DNA from: a virus
Virus record (IMG/VR): IMGVR_UViG_3300027734_000264
Location: 1 to 27,054 of that record
Direction: 5' to 3' (one strand)
DNA: 27,054 nucleotides
Positions 7,518 to 19,787 of the stretch are shown here, one piece after another (position 1 is the first letter of the stretch; each line of letters begins with the position of its first letter). The notes beneath the pieces were generated by a model. The model had not been told where the DNA came from. It did not search any database and worked only from the letters and a program-made list of their open reading frames with translations. Both the position numbers and the translations under genes were made by a program.

Positions 7518-7808
7518 CTAGAAAGGGCTTTTAGAGCCTTTGGTTGGCATTTCCTCGCACAATCTGCGAATGGTCTCATTCAGTGCGTCTATTTCTTCCA
7601 TTTTATTGATAGCCCATGCACGTTTTTGCCCATGCCATCCCATTATTGGATTTCGGTGGCAATCGACACATAGTGCAATGCAAGTGTATTGAAGCCCTTG
7701 TTTGTAGTGGTGGGCTTCGCTTGGGGCTGATGCTTCACAGACTGAACACGGCAAAGACTTGACCCTTGCTAGGTGTAGCCTCTCCTTTGCGTTCAATTTG
7801 TTGTTCAT
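7518..7808 (-). CDS. Ref-like HNH nuclease
   Basis: The 96-residue product has the treble-clef layout C21-x2-C24, H33-H34, C47-x2-C50-H51 and a later H59. This matches the small phage nucleases related to P1 Ref (recombination enhancement, a RecA-dependent HNH nuclease). ATG 7808 is used because it overlaps the upstream stop as ATGA; the longer frame from 7856 would overlap by about 50 bases. It probably cuts DNA during recombination or repair. A different HNH subfamily is possible. Confidence 0.75.
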   Translation of the reverse strand: MNNKLNAKERLHLARVKSLPCSVCEASAPSEAHHYKQGLQYTCIALCVDCHRNPIMGWHGQKRAWAINKMEEIDALNETIRRLCEEMPTKGSKSPF

Positions 7809-8128
7809 TGGGTGGCTTTTTGCTCTATACGGGCTGAGTATTGCTCTGTTCGCCACACCTCAATGCGGGCTTGTGCCGCAGTCATGAGCCATCTAAAACG
7901 CTCTTCCTTCTCTACGGCCTCCCTGATTCCTTCAAGGATTTCGATGTATTCAGGGTGGGCATAAGCAAAGGTTTCTTGTTTTCCAAGAACTTCTGTGCCC
8001 GCTTGGCTTGCCAATTGAGCCTTGCGTGATTTGCGAAACTCCTCTAAAAACATCCTGTCAGCTTTAGCCTTTGCATAAAGTGGCGCAGTGTCGATTAGGT
8101 ATTGGATTGCTTTGGTGGGTTCGTTCAT
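7805..8128 (-). CDS. Conserved phage protein, unknown function, coiled-coil-like
   Basis: The 107-residue product is nearly all helix and rich in Lys, Glu, Ala and Arg (KADRMFLEEFRKSRKAQLA). It resembles a class of small proteins common in replication regions of other phages, with no established function. It is coupled by ATGA overlaps to the genes on either side (7805-7808 and 8125-8128), so it is co-expressed with the Ref-like nuclease. Confidence 0.75.
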   Translation of the reverse strand: MNEPTKAIQYLIDTAPLYAKAKADRMFLEEFRKSRKAQLASQAGTEVLGKQETFAYAHPEYIEILEGIREAVEKEERFRWLMTAAQARIEVWRTEQYSARIEQKATQ

Positions 8129-8358
8129 ACATCCTCCATTTTGTAGTTGAGTTTGTGATGCTGAAACCGCATTGCCGCCTCACACTCCAACTCTTTGAAA
8201 GATTCGTCACTCAGCAAACCGATACAGTTGCGACCCTCAAACCAAACCTCACGAATAGACTCGTTAAAGGTGGAATCATGGTCTTGCTCATATTCGTAAA
8301 CGACTGTTACGACTTCGCTACCCGCACCGATTGTTGTATCAAATTCCCATGTGTTCAT
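8125..8358 (-). CDS. Conserved phage protein, unknown function
   Basis: The 77-residue acidic product starts MNTWEFDTTIGAGSEVVTVV, a beta-rich opening resembling small proteins in many tailed phages. It ends with a helix (FKELECEAAMRFQHHK). The start is ATG at 8358 with a strong ribosome site (CAGGAGTGAATT), the same sequence used before 11212. It is the first gene of a three-gene ATGA-coupled set ending in the Ref-like nuclease, with an operator-like palindrome 52 bases upstream. Confidence 0.75.
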   Translation of the reverse strand: MNTWEFDTTIGAGSEVVTVVYEYEQDHDSTFNESIREVWFEGRNCIGLLSDESFKELECEAAMRFQHHKLNYKMEDV

Positions 8359-8409: not shown

Positions 8410-8424
8410 TAGGGATTTACCCTA
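8410..8424. promoter_or_regulatory. Operator-like palindrome upstream of the 8358 gene
   Basis: TAGGG-ATTTA-CCCTA is a perfect inverted repeat with a 5-base centre, of the same type as the sites at 3858, 4537, 4571 and 11116. It overlaps the end of the VRR-NUC gene (stop at 8417). It lies upstream of the 8358-7518 operon, whose promoter should be in 8359-8416. Confidence 0.5.
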
Positions 8425-8683
8425 ATGTCTGAATCATTCTTAAAGCGGCTTCAGGATTGTCAATTCTGCACAAAGTACCGCCACACCAATTCTCAAAAAA
8501 GTTTGCCTGTAGCTTTGTTAATCTCTTTTTAGAGTCTGTTTTGATCTCTACCAAGAAAGTATGGTTTTTATATCCCACAAGCAAATCCACAGGCAAACCA
8601 ATAATCCACACAGTTGCACCAGAGGCACGAAGCACACTGACGATTTGCTCTTGATTAGCGTCAACACGGGCGGCTCTCCTCAT
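8417..8683 (-). CDS. VRR-NUC domain nuclease
   Basis: The 88-residue product is a minimal PD-(D/E)xK nuclease of the VRR-NUC type. E12 lies in the first helix, D33 in PVDLLVG, E46 and K48 in FLVEIK, and Q59 in the following helix. These proteins act on branched or flap DNA and phages often carry the single-domain form. It is coupled by ATGA (8680-8683) to the preceding small gene. Length and catalytic residues are normal for stand-alone phage versions. Confidence 0.85.
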   Translation of the reverse strand: MRRAARVDANQEQIVSVLRASGATVWIIGLPVDLLVGYKNHTFLVEIKTDSKKRLTKLQANFFENWCGGTLCRIDNPEAALRMIQTLG

Positions 8684-8892
8684 AGTAATGTCCCATCTTT
8701 GATTCGGTTCATATATTCCCTTATGCGGTCTCTTGCACCTATGCCATAGATTCGTTCTGCTCTCTCAAGTCTGGCACGAATGAGATCACGATTTTTACTC
8801 CACTCCCAATTCCGATAAAGCTCTCTTGCCTCGGCTTGCTCAAGAATTACTCTATCGCTTGGGTTCTCAGTGTTTCTTCTACTCCAAGTCAC
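8680..8892 (-). CDS. Small basic helical protein, unknown function
   Basis: The 70-residue product is rich in Arg and Glu (RARLERAERIYGIGARDRIREYM) and strongly helical. It uses a GTG start at 8892, overlapping the preceding 35-residue gene by 14 bases. It is coupled by ATGA to the VRR-NUC nuclease, which suggests a nucleic-acid-related partner role. No family is recognised. Confidence 0.7.
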   Translation of the reverse strand: MTWSRRNTENPSDRVILEQAEARELYRNWEWSKNRDLIRARLERAERIYGIGARDRIREYMNRIKDGTLL

Positions 8893-8986
8893 CAGTTAAC
8901 TCCAGTGCTGTATTTATCAGGTGTAAGGGGTAAGGAACACCCTCTTTCACTCTGTCCAAAAGTCTCATTGCTTCAAAGTAGTTCAT
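8879..8986 (-). CDS. Small conserved-type phage protein (35 residues)
   Basis: The frame from ATG 8986 to TAG 8879 encodes a 35-residue peptide starting MNYFEAMRLLDRVKEGVPYP and ending ELTGDLE. Similar short proteins with this pattern (leucine-rich helix, a proline, an xLTGDL ending) occur in replication regions of other phages. The start overlaps the Mom-like gene stop as ATGA (8986-8983), strong support that it is translated. Function unknown. Confidence 0.65.
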   Translation of the reverse strand: MNYFEAMRLLDRVKEGVPYPLHLINTALELTGDLE

Positions 8987-9639
8987 ACAAATAAAAGTTG
9001 TTGGGTTTTTACAGTTGTTCCAGAGTCGTATCTCTGTGAGTTGCCTTTGGGATACGGCATTACTTCGTATTTCAACTTAGATCGCATGACTTTTTTGTCA
9101 GTCTTTGACCCGTGAAAGATGATGTAACGATGCTTCCTAGATCGTTCGACATAGTAAAAATCATCACCATGACGCTCTTTTATCTCGGATAAGGTCAGGC
9201 CATCGCCAATAGTTTTAGCGTGTTTATGCTCTTGTCCTTTAATTGTCCAATCAATTCTGTTTGCTGATAAACCCGTGTACAGAAAATTGGTGGCTTGATA
9301 AACGTAGCCAACATGACCTTTGCTTGTGTCGGCAAATGAAACAACAATCATTGGTTTTGGCAATAACTTAATTGAGTTCGCAACCAAGAATGATGCTTCG
9401 TTTTTATGGTTGTCCAACAAGCAGACTCGGTTTAGCTCTAAAACTTTGTCTGAGTATTCTTTGCCACAGATTCCCATGCAAAGTGGTGGTGAGGCGGGAA
9501 TCCCATAAGTCACTACGCCAACCAGAATGTCATCTTTATAAAGCCCAAACGCAAACATTATCTGCGGCATCCGCTTGGCATAGTGTTTTTCAAGCAACCA
9601 AGGCTCAACTTCAAAGTTGTTTATTGGCAACACTTTCAT
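8983..9639 (-). CDS. Mom-like DNA adenine modification enzyme
   Basis: The 218-residue product matches the Mom family of GNAT-like enzymes. In phage Mu, Mom converts adenine to N6-carbamoylmethyladenine and shields DNA from restriction. Recognisable stretches are EPWLLEKHYAKRMP (12-25), the beta-strand pair FGLYKDDILVGVVTYG (31-46), CGKEYSDKVLELNRVCL (58-74) and SFADTSKGHVGYVYQATNF (101-119). A C-terminal basic part (RSRKHRYIIF) follows. It is coupled by ATGA to the replication gene upstream. No Com-like translational activator was recognised next to it. Which bases it modifies cannot be read from sequence. Confidence 0.82.
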   Translation of the reverse strand: MKVLPINNFEVEPWLLEKHYAKRMPQIMFAFGLYKDDILVGVVTYGIPASPPLCMGICGKEYSDKVLELNRVCLLDNHKNEASFLVANSIKLLPKPMIVVSFADTSKGHVGYVYQATNFLYTGLSANRIDWTIKGQEHKHAKTIGDGLTLSEIKERHGDDFYYVERSRKHRYIIFHGSKTDKKVMRSKLKYEVMPYPKGNSQRYDSGTTVKTQQLLFV

Positions 9640-10400
9640 GCGCTTTTCCTCAACTGAGCCATCTTTGCTAAAACTTCTAGCGGAATAGGTGCGGCTTTAA
9701 GGTCATCAGCTTTGATCTTTTCCAAAGCGGCATCAGGCTCATTCTTTGAAGGAACTGTGAGCCTAACAATGTCTGCGGGGTTTGGTTTAACAACCCAATC
9801 AGCTTTGAATGCTTGCCAACCACGAACTACACATTCTTCCAAGGCTTTCTCTAGCGACCAACCAATCTTTTGCGCTTCGCTTGAAATTGCATCAATAGCT
9901 CTATGAGTTATCGGTGCTCTTTTGGCTTTCCTCAAAGTTTTGAATTCTTGCCAAACAGAATTAGAAACGCCTTCAGGCGGTGCAACGCTAGTTGTTCTTT
10001 TCTGTATCTGTTCTGTATCTGTATCTGTATCTGTATCTATAGCGTTACTTGGGCGTTTCTGTAACGTTTCAGCAACGTTACTTACCTTTTTCTTTTTATT
10101 ACGATGCTTCGCAACCCGCATGGTGCTTGAGTCTGAGACAAATTGACGTTTATCCCAATTAAGCAGATTCCAATGTTTATCAATGAAATTCTTGCTGATA
10201 AACAAGTCTTTAGTTTCATTCAATTCGCTTGTGGATAACCTAAGTTGAAACGCTATTTCTGTTTCATGTAACGTTTCAAGAACTTCGCTACATCGGAGGC
10301 ACATGAGCATGACATAACGTCTTTGCATTGCCTCTGAAAGCATTTGAATTTTTGGGTCGTGTGCGAACTCTGAATAGAGCCTAAACCAAGGATTAGCCAT
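9636..10400 (-). CDS. Replication initiator / replisome organiser-like protein
   Basis: The 254-residue product begins MANPWFRLYSEFAHDPKIQM, the opening of phage replication-organiser proteins with an N-terminal winged helix; residues 1-90 would form that domain. A basic linker (KHRNKKKKVSN) leads to a low-complexity DTDTDTDT stretch at about residues 122-129. A C-terminal helical domain of the kind that contacts helicase or its loader follows. The DNA under the linker contains repeats, an inverted repeat and, nearby, a DnaA box, reminiscent of the origin inside lambda gene O. It is the first of the ATGA-coupled block ending in VRR-NUC. Confidence 0.65.
   Translation of the reverse strand: MANPWFRLYSEFAHDPKIQMLSEAMQRRYVMLMCLRCSEVLETLHETEIAFQLRLSTSELNETKDLFISKNFIDKHWNLLNWDKRQFVSDSSTMRVAKHRNKKKKVSNVAETLQKRPSNAIDTDTDTDTEQIQKRTTSVAPPEGVSNSVWQEFKTLRKAKRAPITHRAIDAISSEAQKIGWSLEKALEECVVRGWQAFKADWVVKPNPADIVRLTVPSKNEPDAALEKIKADDLKAAPIPLEVLAKMAQLRKSA
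10001..10081. repeat. Hexamer repeats and inverted repeat inside the replication gene
   Basis: TCTGTA occurs at 10001 and four times in tandem at 10012-10035. Then GTAACGTT (10061-10068) and AACGTTAC (10074-10081) form a perfect 8-base inverted repeat around TCAGC. GTAACGTTTC recurs at 10268-10277. The arrangement looks like iterons next to a stem, as in origins embedded in initiator genes. An alternative is plain low-complexity coding sequence. Confidence 0.55.
10230..10238 (-). other. Perfect DnaA box inside the replication gene
   Basis: TGTGGATAA on the plus strand is TTATCCACA on the minus strand, the strongest DnaA-box sequence. It lies 149 bases from the hexamer and inverted repeats. 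Confidence 0.5.
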
Positions 10401-10528: not shown

Positions 10529-10903
10529 TTAAATAAATTGATTATTTGTGATTTCTTTAGTGAAATTAGGATTGCCATTGAATAACCTTCTGGCTTGATT
10601 GTTCATCACCGCATACTCAGACTTAGTAAAAATACCCTTGGCATTGCGTACATCAAAGGGATTTAGCTTGTCATAAGGCTCATCATTGGCGGCTTTTGTA
10701 GCCTCAATCATGTGCGGCTCTAAGGTGTATTTTTGTATCCAAGAACGGCCTAACTTAATCTTTTTAGTTGTCAATTGCTTTTTGCGAAACATCTTCTTAC
10801 AGGCTGCAACAATTGAAGTCCTTGGGATGCCCGTCAGGTTCTCCATTTCATAGGATGTTAGCGATCCATTTTGCAGACATTTGATGATGGCTTCTTGAGT
10901 CAT
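10529..10903 (-). CDS. Winged-helix-like DNA-binding protein, possible regulator
   Basis: The 124-residue product starts with a helix-turn-helix pattern (residues about 1-45: ALIIKCL-type first helix, SLTSYEMENLTGIPRTSIVA recognition segment, then KKMFRKKQLTTKK as a wing). A second conserved stretch, DVRNAKGIFTKSEYAVMNNQ, follows. It is coupled by ATGA to the preceding 59-residue gene and is the second gene after the divergent region with the palindrome at 11116-11130. It is a candidate for the protein that reads the palindromes; that is inference. Confidence 0.65.
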   Translation of the reverse strand: MTQEAIIKCLQNGSLTSYEMENLTGIPRTSIVAACKKMFRKKQLTTKKIKLGRSWIQKYTLEPHMIEATKAANDEPYDKLNPFDVRNAKGIFTKSEYAVMNNQARRLFNGNPNFTKEITNNQFI

Positions 10904-11079
10904 TTGTATAGGTTCTCCAGGTTGATTGGGCGGTTTAGATGGAGTTCTAGGGTTCTAGCAAGTAGAGCAGTTACAGAGGCGGTAAAGTCCTCTGGCTCGT
11001 CCACATAGACACTAGCCATTCGGTTTGCGTAGCCCTGTAGGGTTTCGGCACAAGTTTGTTCAAGTTGTTCGATGTTCAT
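10900..11079 (-). CDS. Small helical protein, unknown function (59 residues)
   Basis: The frame from ATG 11079 to TGA 10900 encodes a 59-residue helical product beginning MNIEQLEQTCAETLQGYANR. Its stop overlaps the start of the winged-helix gene as ATGA, which supports it as the first gene of this minus-strand operon. It is short and leucine- and glutamate-rich, with no recognised family. Confidence 0.65.
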   Translation of the reverse strand: MNIEQLEQTCAETLQGYANRMASVYVDEPEDFTASVTALLARTLELHLNRPINLENLYK

Positions 11080-11403: not shown

Positions 11404-12018
11404 ATGGGCGTACATAAAAAACTGATGGATGCAAGGATTCTCTTGCAACAAGCACCACTCAAGAAGTCAGGCCACAACAAGTTTGCGGGCTATTCTTACT
11501 TCGAGTTGGGTGACTTTCTGCCAACAATCAACCAAATCTTTTCAAGGGTCGGTCTGTGCGGTGTTGTTTCGTTCGATAAAGAACTTGCAACCCTGACCAT
11601 TACCGATACTGAAGACAGTACAGAGATCAAGTTGACAAGCCCTATGGCAGATGCCAATCTAAAGGGCTGCCATCCCATCCAAAATCTTGGTGCGGTAGAG
11701 ACTTATACCAGGCGGTATCTGTGGGTTTCAGCAATGGAAATTGTTGAGCACGATGCCTTAGATTCTTCTGCTCCACTAAAGGAAGATAAGTTAATCATTA
11801 GCCCGACTCAAGGCGCAATGGATAATATTCCTCCAGATGAGGTGCAGTATTTACAAGAGATGGCAGTTGAATTGATTGCTACTTGTGAGCAAGGTGACCC
11901 CAAGGCAGCTTGGGATAAGCTGGAAGGAGAGAACCTAGATTCAGAACAAAAAGTGGCTCTATGGACACTCCTTCCTAGTAAAGTGCGTGCAGCGTTAAAG
12001 AAAGCAAAGGAAATCTAA
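11404..12018 (+). CDS. erf: ERF-family single-strand annealing protein
   Basis: The 204-residue product carries the ERF superfamily core. An N-terminal helix is followed by KFAGYSYFELGDFLPTINQI (26-45) and the strand GLCGVVSF. The signature LGAVETYTRRYLWVSAMEIVEHDALD (95-120) closes the core. The C-terminal third is a helical, variable region. ERF proteins anneal complementary single strands during phage recombination and can circularise terminally redundant genomes. The next gene, 0 bases away, may be its single-strand-binding partner. The start is ATG 11404 with AAGGAAAT upstream. Confidence 0.88.
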   Translation: MGVHKKLMDARILLQQAPLKKSGHNKFAGYSYFELGDFLPTINQIFSRVGLCGVVSFDKELATLTITDTEDSTEIKLTSPMADANLKGCHPIQNLGAVETYTRRYLWVSAMEIVEHDALDSSAPLKEDKLIISPTQGAMDNIPPDEVQYLQEMAVELIATCEQGDPKAAWDKLEGENLDSEQKVALWTLLPSKVRAALKKAKEI

Positions 12019-17563: not shown

Positions 17564-17652
17564 GGGTACGCCCAAATTATGATGTAACTACAAAAGACAA
17601 CAAAGCAAGTGATACAGATTGCCGCAACAAATGCTTCGGCAAAGTCTCTCAT
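17560..17652 (-). CDS. Tiny membrane protein (30 residues)
   Basis: The frame from ATG 17652 (TAATG overlap with the stop of the 711-residue gene) to TGA 17560 encodes 30 residues. One hydrophobic helix, AFVAAICITCFVVFCSYIII, makes up most of it. It fills the gap between virion and lysis genes and is coupled on both sides, which supports translation. It may be a small holin-like or pinholin-like protein; the length is at the extreme low end. Confidence 0.55.
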   Translation of the reverse strand: MRDFAEAFVAAICITCFVVFCSYIIIWAYP

Positions 17653-19787
17653 TATTGTGGCTCAACAGACCAATCGATACTACTTGGAGACACAACAGGT
17701 TGTTGCTCTTGTTTGCCATAAACCATCTGATTAACTTCTGTCAGATATTCATTGTCAATAATTCCTGATTTGTTTAGCATATTCGCAATCTTTGCTCCTG
17801 CCGCGCCAGCAAAAACAGGACTTTTTTGAGCTTTAGAAAGCATGGCTAAAGCATCCATTCCTTCTTTGTTTGTCAAAGCCTTAGAAATAATCTTTGGTGT
17901 TAAATATAAAGCACCAAGAGCTGCTATAGATGGCAATAGATTATTTGATACTTCTTCTGGAAAAGCTAAAAAAGCACCGCCACTAGCTATTGCCGCAGTT
18001 CCAGCTGTTGCCGCAGCACCAATAAGTCTAGAACGTAAAACAGTTGATCCCGCACCTTCTTCTAAGCCGTATTTAGCCGCATTTGCAATGTCAAGCAATT
18101 GTTTACGAGTATTTGCATCTCTAAAAAGATAATTAAATCCTTCTTTAAATGTTTTATCGTCTAACTTTTTAACAAATGTCTCAATTCCATCGGGAGAACC
18201 AAACATCTTATTGATATAACCATATTGCAATTCACCTAACAGACCTTTGCTTTGCTCTTTAGGAAGATACTTTTGCATCTCAACAAGAGCTTTATTTACA
18301 TCTTGCAATCTTTCTGGTCTATCAATGTTAAAAAGATACTCTCCAACTGCTGATGGTTCACTCTTAATGGCAGTTTTCATTGCGCCACCATAAAGACCAT
18401 CTAAAGCGTTTTTATAGCCTTGTTGGGCATTAAAATAATTGCGTAACATTTCATTGTTTTTAGCATTTGCTTCAGTTGTAGGCAAATTTAACTTAGACAA
18501 TTCGTCAATGTTGTATTCTTTAAACTGACCTTGGCGTAGACCTGCGGGCTGGTCAATTCCACCAACTAAACCAAGTCTACGAGCTGCATCCTTTTGTTCT
18601 TGGCTACCAAATGTGATAACTGCAATGTTATCCATATTGTTACGAAGACCTTGGGCATACTTTTTATAATATGCCTCAAGAGTTGTTGCTGGAACACCCT
18701 CTTTTACCGATTCTCTAGCACTTGTCAAGAAATCACTTCTTAAATCATGTGCTGTGCTAAATGAAATCTTGTCTTCTTGTGCCAATATTTGTTCAAGAAC
18801 TTTTCTCTTATCTTCTGCGGATGAAGACATTGCCTTATTTTTGTTAAGACGATCAAGTTCTTCTTTTGCAGAAGTTTTTAATGGTGTCAAATCAACCAAT
18901 AAGCCATCACCTTCTTTTTCAACTTGTTCGTAAATTGGACGATATTTAGCCTTCATTTCTTTGTCAGCTACTTCAATAGCAGTTTGCCAACGATTGCCTA
19001 AAGTCATTTGTGTTGGATCGCCTTGTTTTAATGCTTGTAAAAACACATCAGATGTATCTAGTGTGTTCTTAACTTCATTAACACCTTGCTCAAGTGCTTT
19101 TTTAACATTTGCTTGTTGTTCTGCAAAATCTTTAGCACCAGTTGTAAATTTAAGAGTTCCCTCTATGGCTTCTGTGCCAATGTCGCCAGTTAATTGACCA
19201 CGAGTTAAAGTTGCACCTTCTCTAGAAGATAACCACTCTTGCGCGGCTTTACGGGCAGCCCCTTCTTCTGTATCAAATAAACCTTGTTTTAATCCAGATT
19301 TATTAAGGCCAGTTTTAATTGTTTTACCAAGTACATTAAAAACAAGATTTCCACCAAGATCAAAAGCGGCATTCTCAATGTTATTGGCAAGTAATTTCAT
19401 GCCAGTTTCTGAACTAACAATATTTTTACCTGTTAACAATTGCTCAGCAAAAGTGCCAGCAGTTGTTCCCATTGCCGAACCAGCTAAAGACGGAATATAT
19501 GGACGAGCTATAGCGGGTGCGGCTTGCGTTAATCTTGAAATTGGTGCGGCAAACCTTGATTGAGGCATTGCAAGAGCCGCTATTCCACCAATCAATCCAC
19601 CCGCTTGAGGCAAAGAAGTTGGTTGGTCAATTGGCAATACTTCTAATGGTAAAGAAACAAAAGGATTTAATGCTTTAGCAAGACCAACCCTAGTTATATT
19701 TAGTTCTTGTTGTTTTCTTGCCTCTTCTTCACGAGATGGGCCTGCTTTCATTTCTTGAGGAGCAACACTCCAATCTATTTCTGCCAT
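17652..19787 (-). CDS. Large virion-associated protein, probable internal/ejection protein
   Basis: The 711-residue product has hydrophobic, glycine- and alanine-rich segments near both ends (about 60-125 and 610-650) around a long helical charged centre. This is the make-up of proteins ejected with phage DNA. It begins and ends with nearly the same motif: IDWSVAPQ (4-11) and IDWSVEPQ (704-711, the very C-terminus). It is the last of three long proteins after the tail fibre gene. No enzyme motif is recognised. The start is ATG 19787 with AAGGAG. The role is inferred from composition and place. Confidence 0.6.
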   Translation of the reverse strand: MAEIDWSVAPQEMKAGPSREEEARKQQELNITRVGLAKALNPFVSLPLEVLPIDQPTSLPQAGGLIGGIAALAMPQSRFAAPISRLTQAAPAIARPYIPSLAGSAMGTTAGTFAEQLLTGKNIVSSETGMKLLANNIENAAFDLGGNLVFNVLGKTIKTGLNKSGLKQGLFDTEEGAARKAAQEWLSSREGATLTRGQLTGDIGTEAIEGTLKFTTGAKDFAEQQANVKKALEQGVNEVKNTLDTSDVFLQALKQGDPTQMTLGNRWQTAIEVADKEMKAKYRPIYEQVEKEGDGLLVDLTPLKTSAKEELDRLNKNKAMSSSAEDKRKVLEQILAQEDKISFSTAHDLRSDFLTSARESVKEGVPATTLEAYYKKYAQGLRNNMDNIAVITFGSQEQKDAARRLGLVGGIDQPAGLRQGQFKEYNIDELSKLNLPTTEANAKNNEMLRNYFNAQQGYKNALDGLYGGAMKTAIKSEPSAVGEYLFNIDRPERLQDVNKALVEMQKYLPKEQSKGLLGELQYGYINKMFGSPDGIETFVKKLDDKTFKEGFNYLFRDANTRKQLLDIANAAKYGLEEGAGSTVLRSRLIGAAATAGTAAIASGGAFLAFPEEVSNNLLPSIAALGALYLTPKIISKALTNKEGMDALAMLSKAQKSPVFAGAAGAKIANMLNKSGIIDNEYLTEVNQMVYGKQEQQPVVSPSSIDWSVEPQ

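Follow-up and report, generated by a model that had tools for sequence, protein, structure and literature searches.

The window that we analysed is a linear IMG/VR virus record of 27,054 bases (IMGVR_UViG_3300027734_000264) that carries terminase, portal, endolysin, and virion genes. (In its virion region, a 711-aa ORF at 17652-19787 on the minus strand had no PHROG match at E 0.001.) Positions 8983-9639 are filled exactly by a minus-strand ORF of 218 codons, with its ATG at 9639 and its TGA at 8983; the plus strand has many stops across this interval. The ORF is a mom homologue in a leftward operon (Table 1). It was originally predicted to be coupled to the replication initiator, and this is borne out by the ATGA with which it overlaps the DnaD/O-like gene. 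As described below, related phages carry different genes at two places in this operon, and we will term these slot 1 (between the initiator and the 35-aa ORF s35) and slot 2 (behind the conserved ORF p8680).

Table 1. Features of the mom operon and of the divergent Erf operon in the window.
Feature	Positions	Strand	Evidence or remarks
Two ORFs (7805-8128; 8125-8358), slot 2 right border	7805..8358	-	
Endonuclease-like 88-aa ORF, slot 2 content; presumably of VRR-NUC type	8417..8683	-	phrog_93 endonuclease, 1.2e-6
p8680, conserved 70-aa ORF separating slots 1 and 2	8680..8892	-	without Pfam family
s35, 35-aa ORF, slot 1 right border	8879..8986	-	matches in 49/80 Erf-anchored loci, many of them fragmentary; median identity 83%
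Right junction ATGA: mom stop overlapping ATG of s35	8983..8986	-	sequence
mom homologue, 218 aa, slot 1 cargo	8983..9639	-	Pfam Mom; phrog_1384; AF2 model vs 8bv8; S83 = Mu S124
Left junction ATGA: initiator TGA overlapping mom ATG	9636..9639	-	sequence
GAGG, Shine-Dalgarno-like, within last initiator codons, 8 nt ahead of mom ATG	9648..9651	-	sequence
Replication initiator / helicase loader (DnaD-like, O-like), slot 1 left border	9636..10400	-	phrog_10469, 7.2e-16; phrog_678, 6.7e-15
First two ORFs of leftward operon (10900-11079; 10529-10903)	10529..11079	-	10529-10903: weak Ren/sigma/MarR-like matches
Erf-like ssDNA-annealing protein, divergent operon	11404..12018	+	phrog_155, 1.1e-19

Mom identity and control of the gene

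The original prediction placed the product in the Mom family, and profile searches and a structural model agree. The 218-aa protein matches the Pfam family Mom (PF25680) with E 7.3e-37 (127.4 bits, against a cut-off of 27.1), and the match is full-length (residues 14-198 to positions 15-202 of a profile of 202). It also matches phrog_1384, "Mom-like DNA modification protein" (E 3.9e-56), and Mu Mom itself (PDB 8bv8, E 4e-10). Given these values, the identity is far above chance. An AlphaFold model built from 41 sequences (pLDDT 88.9, pTM 0.82) has Mu Mom 8bv8 as its best match in the PDB (Foldseek E 1.2e-10; VIA-align Z 19.2, rmsd 3.3 over 183 residues); the second-ranked entry is a glyphosate acetyltransferase, with Z 12.7. 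According to its title, 8bv8 is the S124A "inactive mutant," and S124 of Mu corresponds to S83 here, which is invariant in all 41 rows of the alignment. Among 22 Mom sequences including that of Mu, 13 residues are invariant (among them H19, Y20, E68, R71, and Y114), and no fewer than 90% of the sequences retain S83 and D104. The original prediction had allowed for the outcome that modelling would reveal a GNAT fold lacking the Mom active-site residues; what we found is the Mom fold with S83 present, and the Mom reading stands. By sequence and by predicted structure, the protein is a member of the Mom family with the Mom variant of the GNAT fold and the active-site serine.

The product of Mu Mom is a carbamoylmethyl group on adenine (N6-carbamoylmethyl), and the molecule in 8bv8 is named "Methylcarbamoylase mom." Across 80 loci that were picked by Mom similarity, the median pN of mom relative to the window copy is 0.010 and the median pS is 0.30, so the Mom protein is maintained by selection.

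In Mu, mom is expressed late and depends on Com, according to passages in PMC4461284 and PMC6483171. It had been noted that no Com-like gene is seen here, and within the 27,054-base record this holds: the Zn_ribbon_Com profile had no match at E ≤ 10. A search of 22 close records with the profile likewise gave nothing at E ≤ 1. As a linear IMG/VR record may be a fragment, a com gene beyond its ends is possible. GATC occurs once in the 400 bases before mom and is absent from the 160 bases before the first ORF of the operon, whereas Mu has four such sites in the 400 bases preceding com. In other words, we found neither the Com gene nor the cluster of Dam sites (GATC) of a Mu-type com-mom operon. 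Position in the operon is, by itself, what suggests early expression of mom. Promoter and terminator scans yielded sites no more numerous than in shuffles, so we do not claim a promoter.

A Mom homologue is encoded in 278 of 50,697 phage-collection records. For a view of other mom genes, we chose 23 neighbourhoods by hand for diversity (Mu, the positive control in the Com search, and 22 others). Com (PF10122) scored above the cut-off in three phages (Mu, PhiR68_1, and F_MX560), all of them Mu-like; the other 20 had no match above the cut-off, although one of these has a sub-threshold match. On the basis of these 23 records, Mu is the exception among mom phages in having Com. By our reading, annotated replication or recombination genes lie in the stretch viewed around mom in 12 of the 23 (CRP-902, EauM-23, Jing313, Cassita, BaconJack, BossLady, P12002L, Appa, VSiP, PK3.6, pAEv1818, and Alsa_1). 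Several others have hypothetical neighbours only, one record is without annotation, and the mom of Riggi adjoins the terminase. (A ParB-like gene lies beside mom, or one gene before it, in BossLady [L092, Arthrobacter], phiEf11 [L096, Enterococcus], and Appa [L098, Microbacterium].)

Contents and junctions of slot 1

Our first relatives were the best 80 of 245 loci by Mom identity, and in these Mom is 93-100% identical while the neighbours are 26-96% identical. Other sets were anchored on genes other than Mom: the best 80 of at least 592 loci for Erf, the best 80 of 246 for an HTH-like ORF, and the best 80 of 321 for p8680. Counting loci from earlier sets once, both slot borders were present in 63, 65, and 59 loci, respectively. 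Mom occupied the slot in 7 of the 63 Erf loci (plus three with a distant Mom), in 11 of the 65 HTH loci, and in 23 of the 59 p8680 loci. The census of slot 1 comprises 155 dereplicated loci, with the window included and the anchors chosen without reference to Mom.

In this census, 66 loci carry an established DNA-modification gene in slot 1, six carry a possible one, 35 carry other ORFs, and 48 are empty. The established occupants are Mom (31 loci, namely 30 with Mom and one with a distant Mom), N4/N6 methyltransferases of two families (14 loci), a DpdA-like gene together with a transporter-like gene (11 loci), C5 methyltransferases (six loci), and a TET-associated glycosyltransferase or TAGT (four loci). 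The possible modifiers are GNAT-ABC proteins and PAPS-reductase-like proteins, in three loci each. Thus, at least six unlike families of modification genes, along with small ORFs and empty alleles, lie between the same borders. Pfam and PHROG searches with representatives of the cargo matched N6_N4_Mtase (1.6e-51 and 2e-21), DNA_methylase (6.9e-31), TAGT (8.9e-44), Mom for the distant Mom (6.3e-20), phrog_887 queuine tRNA-ribosyltransferase (3.5e-69), and Vut_1 (1.1e-9). The 35 loci with other ORFs have mostly small genes with no assigned role, and two of them are HNH genes. Recurrent small cargo encodes proteins of 68, 78, 63, and 62 aa; neither Pfam nor PHROG matched the 78-aa protein, and NCBIfam gave no match for those of 68 and 63 aa. 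With 48 empty loci and 35 that have other ORFs, modification accounts for the majority of occupied slots but is no rule.

Some of these families lie mainly in slot 1, which holds 30 of 31 Mom genes, 14 of 15 N4/N6 methyltransferases, and 11 of 14 DpdA-like genes. Others lie mainly outside it, namely the C5 methyltransferases (27 of 33, although five of these 27 are weak matches of about 33% identity) and the PAPS-reductase-like genes (17 of 20). The PAPS-reductase-like protein of one locus (L158) matches the PADLOC model of SspD with E 1.8e-19. SspD is a DNA phosphorothioation protein. We graded this cargo as possible only, because most of its copies are outside slot 1.

When we took only families that have two or more members of 100 aa or longer, five of the eight found mostly in slot 1 are established modification families, versus two of 66 outside (Fisher P = 7e-5), where the slot families were already known to us when they were classed and the outside classing came from 25 of 32 Pfam families. 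A broader count of modification-type families gave seven of eight versus four of 66 (P = 1e-6). In both counts, the C5 family was added by hand as the 66th outside family, as it had merged with the initiators via a 451-aa ORF. (This ORF, at L226:5458-6813 in operon orientation, links the initiator and C5 methyltransferase clusters and is a possible fusion across the slot junction.)

At the left junction of the slot, ATGA closes the initiator gene in 129 of 155 loci, and in 86 of the 107 occupied loci the first cargo gene opens in this overlap with the initiator. In all 48 empty loci, the initiator stop and the start codon of the following ORF share the sequence NTGA. At the other end, the last cargo gene overlaps the following ORF in 73 of 107 loci, and mom ends in ATGA in every one of 117 mom loci. 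Homology between alleles breaks at these points. A Shine-Dalgarno core lies inside the initiator gene, at −15 to −5 of the ATG, in 86 of the 129 ATGA junctions, versus 7.0% at random initiator codons, and therefore the tail of the initiator can serve any gene that is plugged in. (The main exceptions among the junctions are 10 loci in which a P-like replication gene comes first.) These counts show that the coupling to the initiator belongs to the slot and not to mom.

Slot 2, near-exclusion, and exchange

Of the 104 loci with both borders of slot 2, 73 have RusA there, 29 the endonuclease-like ORF, 23 a C5 methyltransferase, and 11 a PAPS-reductase-like gene; a slot can hold more than one of these genes. 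No two established modification families were found together in slot 1 (0 of 188 loci). Across the two slots, when slot 1 carried an established modification gene, slot 2 held a C5 methyltransferase in only one of 46 loci; when slot 1 did not, slot 2 held one in 22 of 58 (Fisher P = 6.6e-6; P = 1.3e-5 and 2.6e-5 with stricter dereplication). With tree-independent pairs the tendency is unchanged: of 11 pairs, 6.1 showed the two slots changing in opposite ways and 0.1 in the same way (median P = 0.031). This tree-aware test is weak, and the exclusion could in part reflect lineage structure. There is also a counter-example (L235). In another locus (L201), mom lies in slot 2 beside a C5 methyltransferase, and this is the sole mom outside slot 1 among 31. 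Among loci with a distant mom, four of 67 have a second modification-type gene nearby (a DpdA-like gene in L374, a GNAT-ABC gene in L384, and a methyltransferase in L397 and L404).

In this group, genomes that are related elsewhere differ in the gene at this one place, which is what defines a flexible gene. On a tree of the HTH protein (136 rows), the cargo changed at least 74 times, versus a mean of 79 (range 68-85) for shuffled labels; close copies had been removed from this tree, which raises the number of changes. We considered a recent spread of mom, as Mom is 93-100% identical between loci whose neighbours have diverged, but we rejected this because Mom identity itself had been used to select these loci (the best 80 of 245). 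In loci chosen by other genes, pairs of Mom proteins have a median identity of 94.5%, versus 68% for the HTH protein and 40% for the initiator, and the difference at fourfold sites is 0.38 for mom, 0.37 for p8680, and 0.62 for p7805. We read the high identity of Mom mainly as a result of strong purifying selection, to which some sharing by recombination may have added.

All of the loci are metagenomic, and no isolate was found. A scan of 84,980 species genomes with a Mom pattern gave no relative, and neither TerL nor Erf pointed to a close cultured phage. Relatives of Erf were limited to four contigs from MAGs or drafts, including Herbaspirillum and Burkholderiales.

We also looked at restriction-site avoidance. 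CCGG is absent from the window (28 expected), and CGCG and GGCC are strongly avoided as well. However, across loci without modification cargo, CCGG is found 23 times with 376 expected, and we saw no effect of cargo on the avoidance of CCGG, CGCG, or GGCC, which is about equal with any cargo or none. Because the avoidance varies so little with cargo, we did not use it as evidence of protection. (Unlike in the rest of the group, GATC is absent from each of four loci with a C5 methyltransferase in slot 1 [L178, L206, L236, and L249]. In the four TAGT loci [L171, L227, L242, and L253], GATC is found 0 times with 121 expected.)

A proposed exchangeable slot for DNA modification

We propose, with a probability of about 75%, that this gene encodes a Mom-type enzyme that probably adds a bulky group to adenines in the phage DNA, and that it is the current occupant of an exchangeable modification slot. 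The slot itself is read directly from the sequences: on one side it is bordered by the 3' end of the initiator gene, where a ribosome-binding site is often present ahead of a final ATGA, and on the other by a short conserved ORF with an ATG start. A gene recombined into the slot would be read in the replication operon and would usually be translationally coupled to the initiator. Here, the Mom enzyme is predicted to be made alongside the initiator as replication begins, and, if it is catalytically active as we infer, it would probably modify adenines in the phage's own replicating DNA with a bulky group. New phage DNA would then be marked before packaging, so that the progeny would resist host restriction. 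Related phages have one of several unlike DNA-modification systems in this place, or small genes, or nothing; the other modification cargo would give the same protection by different chemistry. Exchange is likely to proceed by homologous recombination via the tail of the initiator and s35/p8680, perhaps aided by the Erf annealase. The Erf-like protein of the divergent operon is a possible recombinase for this.

The slot might instead be an ordinary hypervariable region, in which modification genes are common simply because the accessory genes of phages often are of this kind. About a third of the occupied slots (35 of 107) do hold other genes, mostly small ORFs or HNH genes, and methyltransferases were the commonest known variable genes in cryoconite phages (51 of 482, in a section of PMC7468147). 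We consider this rather unlikely because it accounts neither for the enrichment of modification families in slot 1 relative to the families outside, by either count, nor for the near-exclusion with the C5 methyltransferases of slot 2. It is more improbable still that mom is under an unusual early control that makes this gene special. Its position in the operon, its ATGA overlap, and the lack of Com do suggest such a reading, and the original prediction of control unlike that of Mu is correct as a contrast with Mu. But the arrangement is not special: Com is missing in 20 of the 23 mom phages, replication neighbourhoods are common among them (12 of 23, with recombination genes counted), and the coupling is a property of the slot, as the junctions of the other alleles show.

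It is also conceivable that the Mom homologue has another target (host DNA, RNA, or a protein) and acts as a factor for host takeover or as a toxic factor. Untimely expression of mom from Mu is toxic to cells (as described in part of PMC4461284), and the GNAT fold is a general one, with many protein acetyltransferases among the fold matches. Yet Mu Mom is the closest fold by a wide margin, the essential serine and other invariant residues are kept, and the other known genes found in the slot mostly encode DNA-modifying enzymes, all of which makes such a role very unlikely. We therefore prefer the reading of mom as one of several exchangeable DNA-modification genes.

A broader and more tentative idea is that the 3' end of the initiator, with its own ribosome-binding site and ATGA, is a standing connector for one anti-restriction chemistry at a time, with slot 2, 0.3 kb further on, as the C5 alternative. 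By association, the small cargo (68, 78, 63, and 62 aa), the GNAT-ABC proteins, and the SspD-like proteins might then be undescribed anti-restriction or modification factors; we regard this idea as a whole as possible, but would not put its odds as high as even. If it is true, this group of phages can change its DNA chemistry in one recombination step, as a single translation-ready slot would take adenine, guanine, or cytosine modification systems. It would also give a search rule, which is to look between the initiator and s35 for new DNA-modification or anti-restriction genes. A further question that becomes testable is whether each phage is held to a single modification; a pair might, for instance, be toxic or redundant, or attract modification-dependent nucleases.

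Parts of this picture are known. Interchangeable methyltransferases of phages have been described (in a portion of PMC7468147), as have the Mom, DpdA, TAGT, and GNAT-ABC families. We found no description of the slot in searches of the open-licence literature, including passages of PMC8594841, PMC12707154, PMC12373910, and PMC7468147. The range of chemistries in one slot appears to be new.

A parallel is found in the metagenomic islands of cryoconite phages, where, as is likely here, genes are swapped at fixed places by recombination. There, methyltransferases and a few glycosyltransferases are found among many variable genes (according to the same portion of PMC7468147). In contrast, here a single slot takes Mom, DpdA-like, glycosyltransferase, N4/N6, and C5 genes, has ATGA connectors, and shows near-exclusion with a second slot.

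Individual cargo genes also resemble known systems. The DpdA-like cargo matches phrog_887 and proteins of the Salmonella phages SEN1 (40% identity), SW9 (46%), and 7-11 (31% over 93%, E 7e-25), and the DNA of phage 7-11 was reported to contain a 7-deazaguanine (in a section of PMC8306585). A difference is that the gene is paired here with a gene like Vut_1 or a queuosine-precursor transporter, whose NCBIfam matches are far below the cut-offs; this pairing suggests that the precursor may be imported. The 361-aa cargo of locus L148 has GNAT and ABC-type matches and is likened, by domain make-up only, to the GNAT-ABC ATPase proteins, for which nucleobase modification has been predicted (in a passage of PMC7824862).

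As for mom itself, the protein shares with Mu Mom the fold, the invariant residues including the essential serine, and the family model, at 27-28% identity. It differs in that the record here shows no Com gene and carries mom behind a replication initiator, whereas the mom of Mu is a late gene, and in that the product here is a predicted one. Riggi, A511, ICP1, CRP-902, and others also have Mom without Com, often near replication genes; the announcement of phage Riggi in 2013 described a mom without Com or C (PMC3853051).
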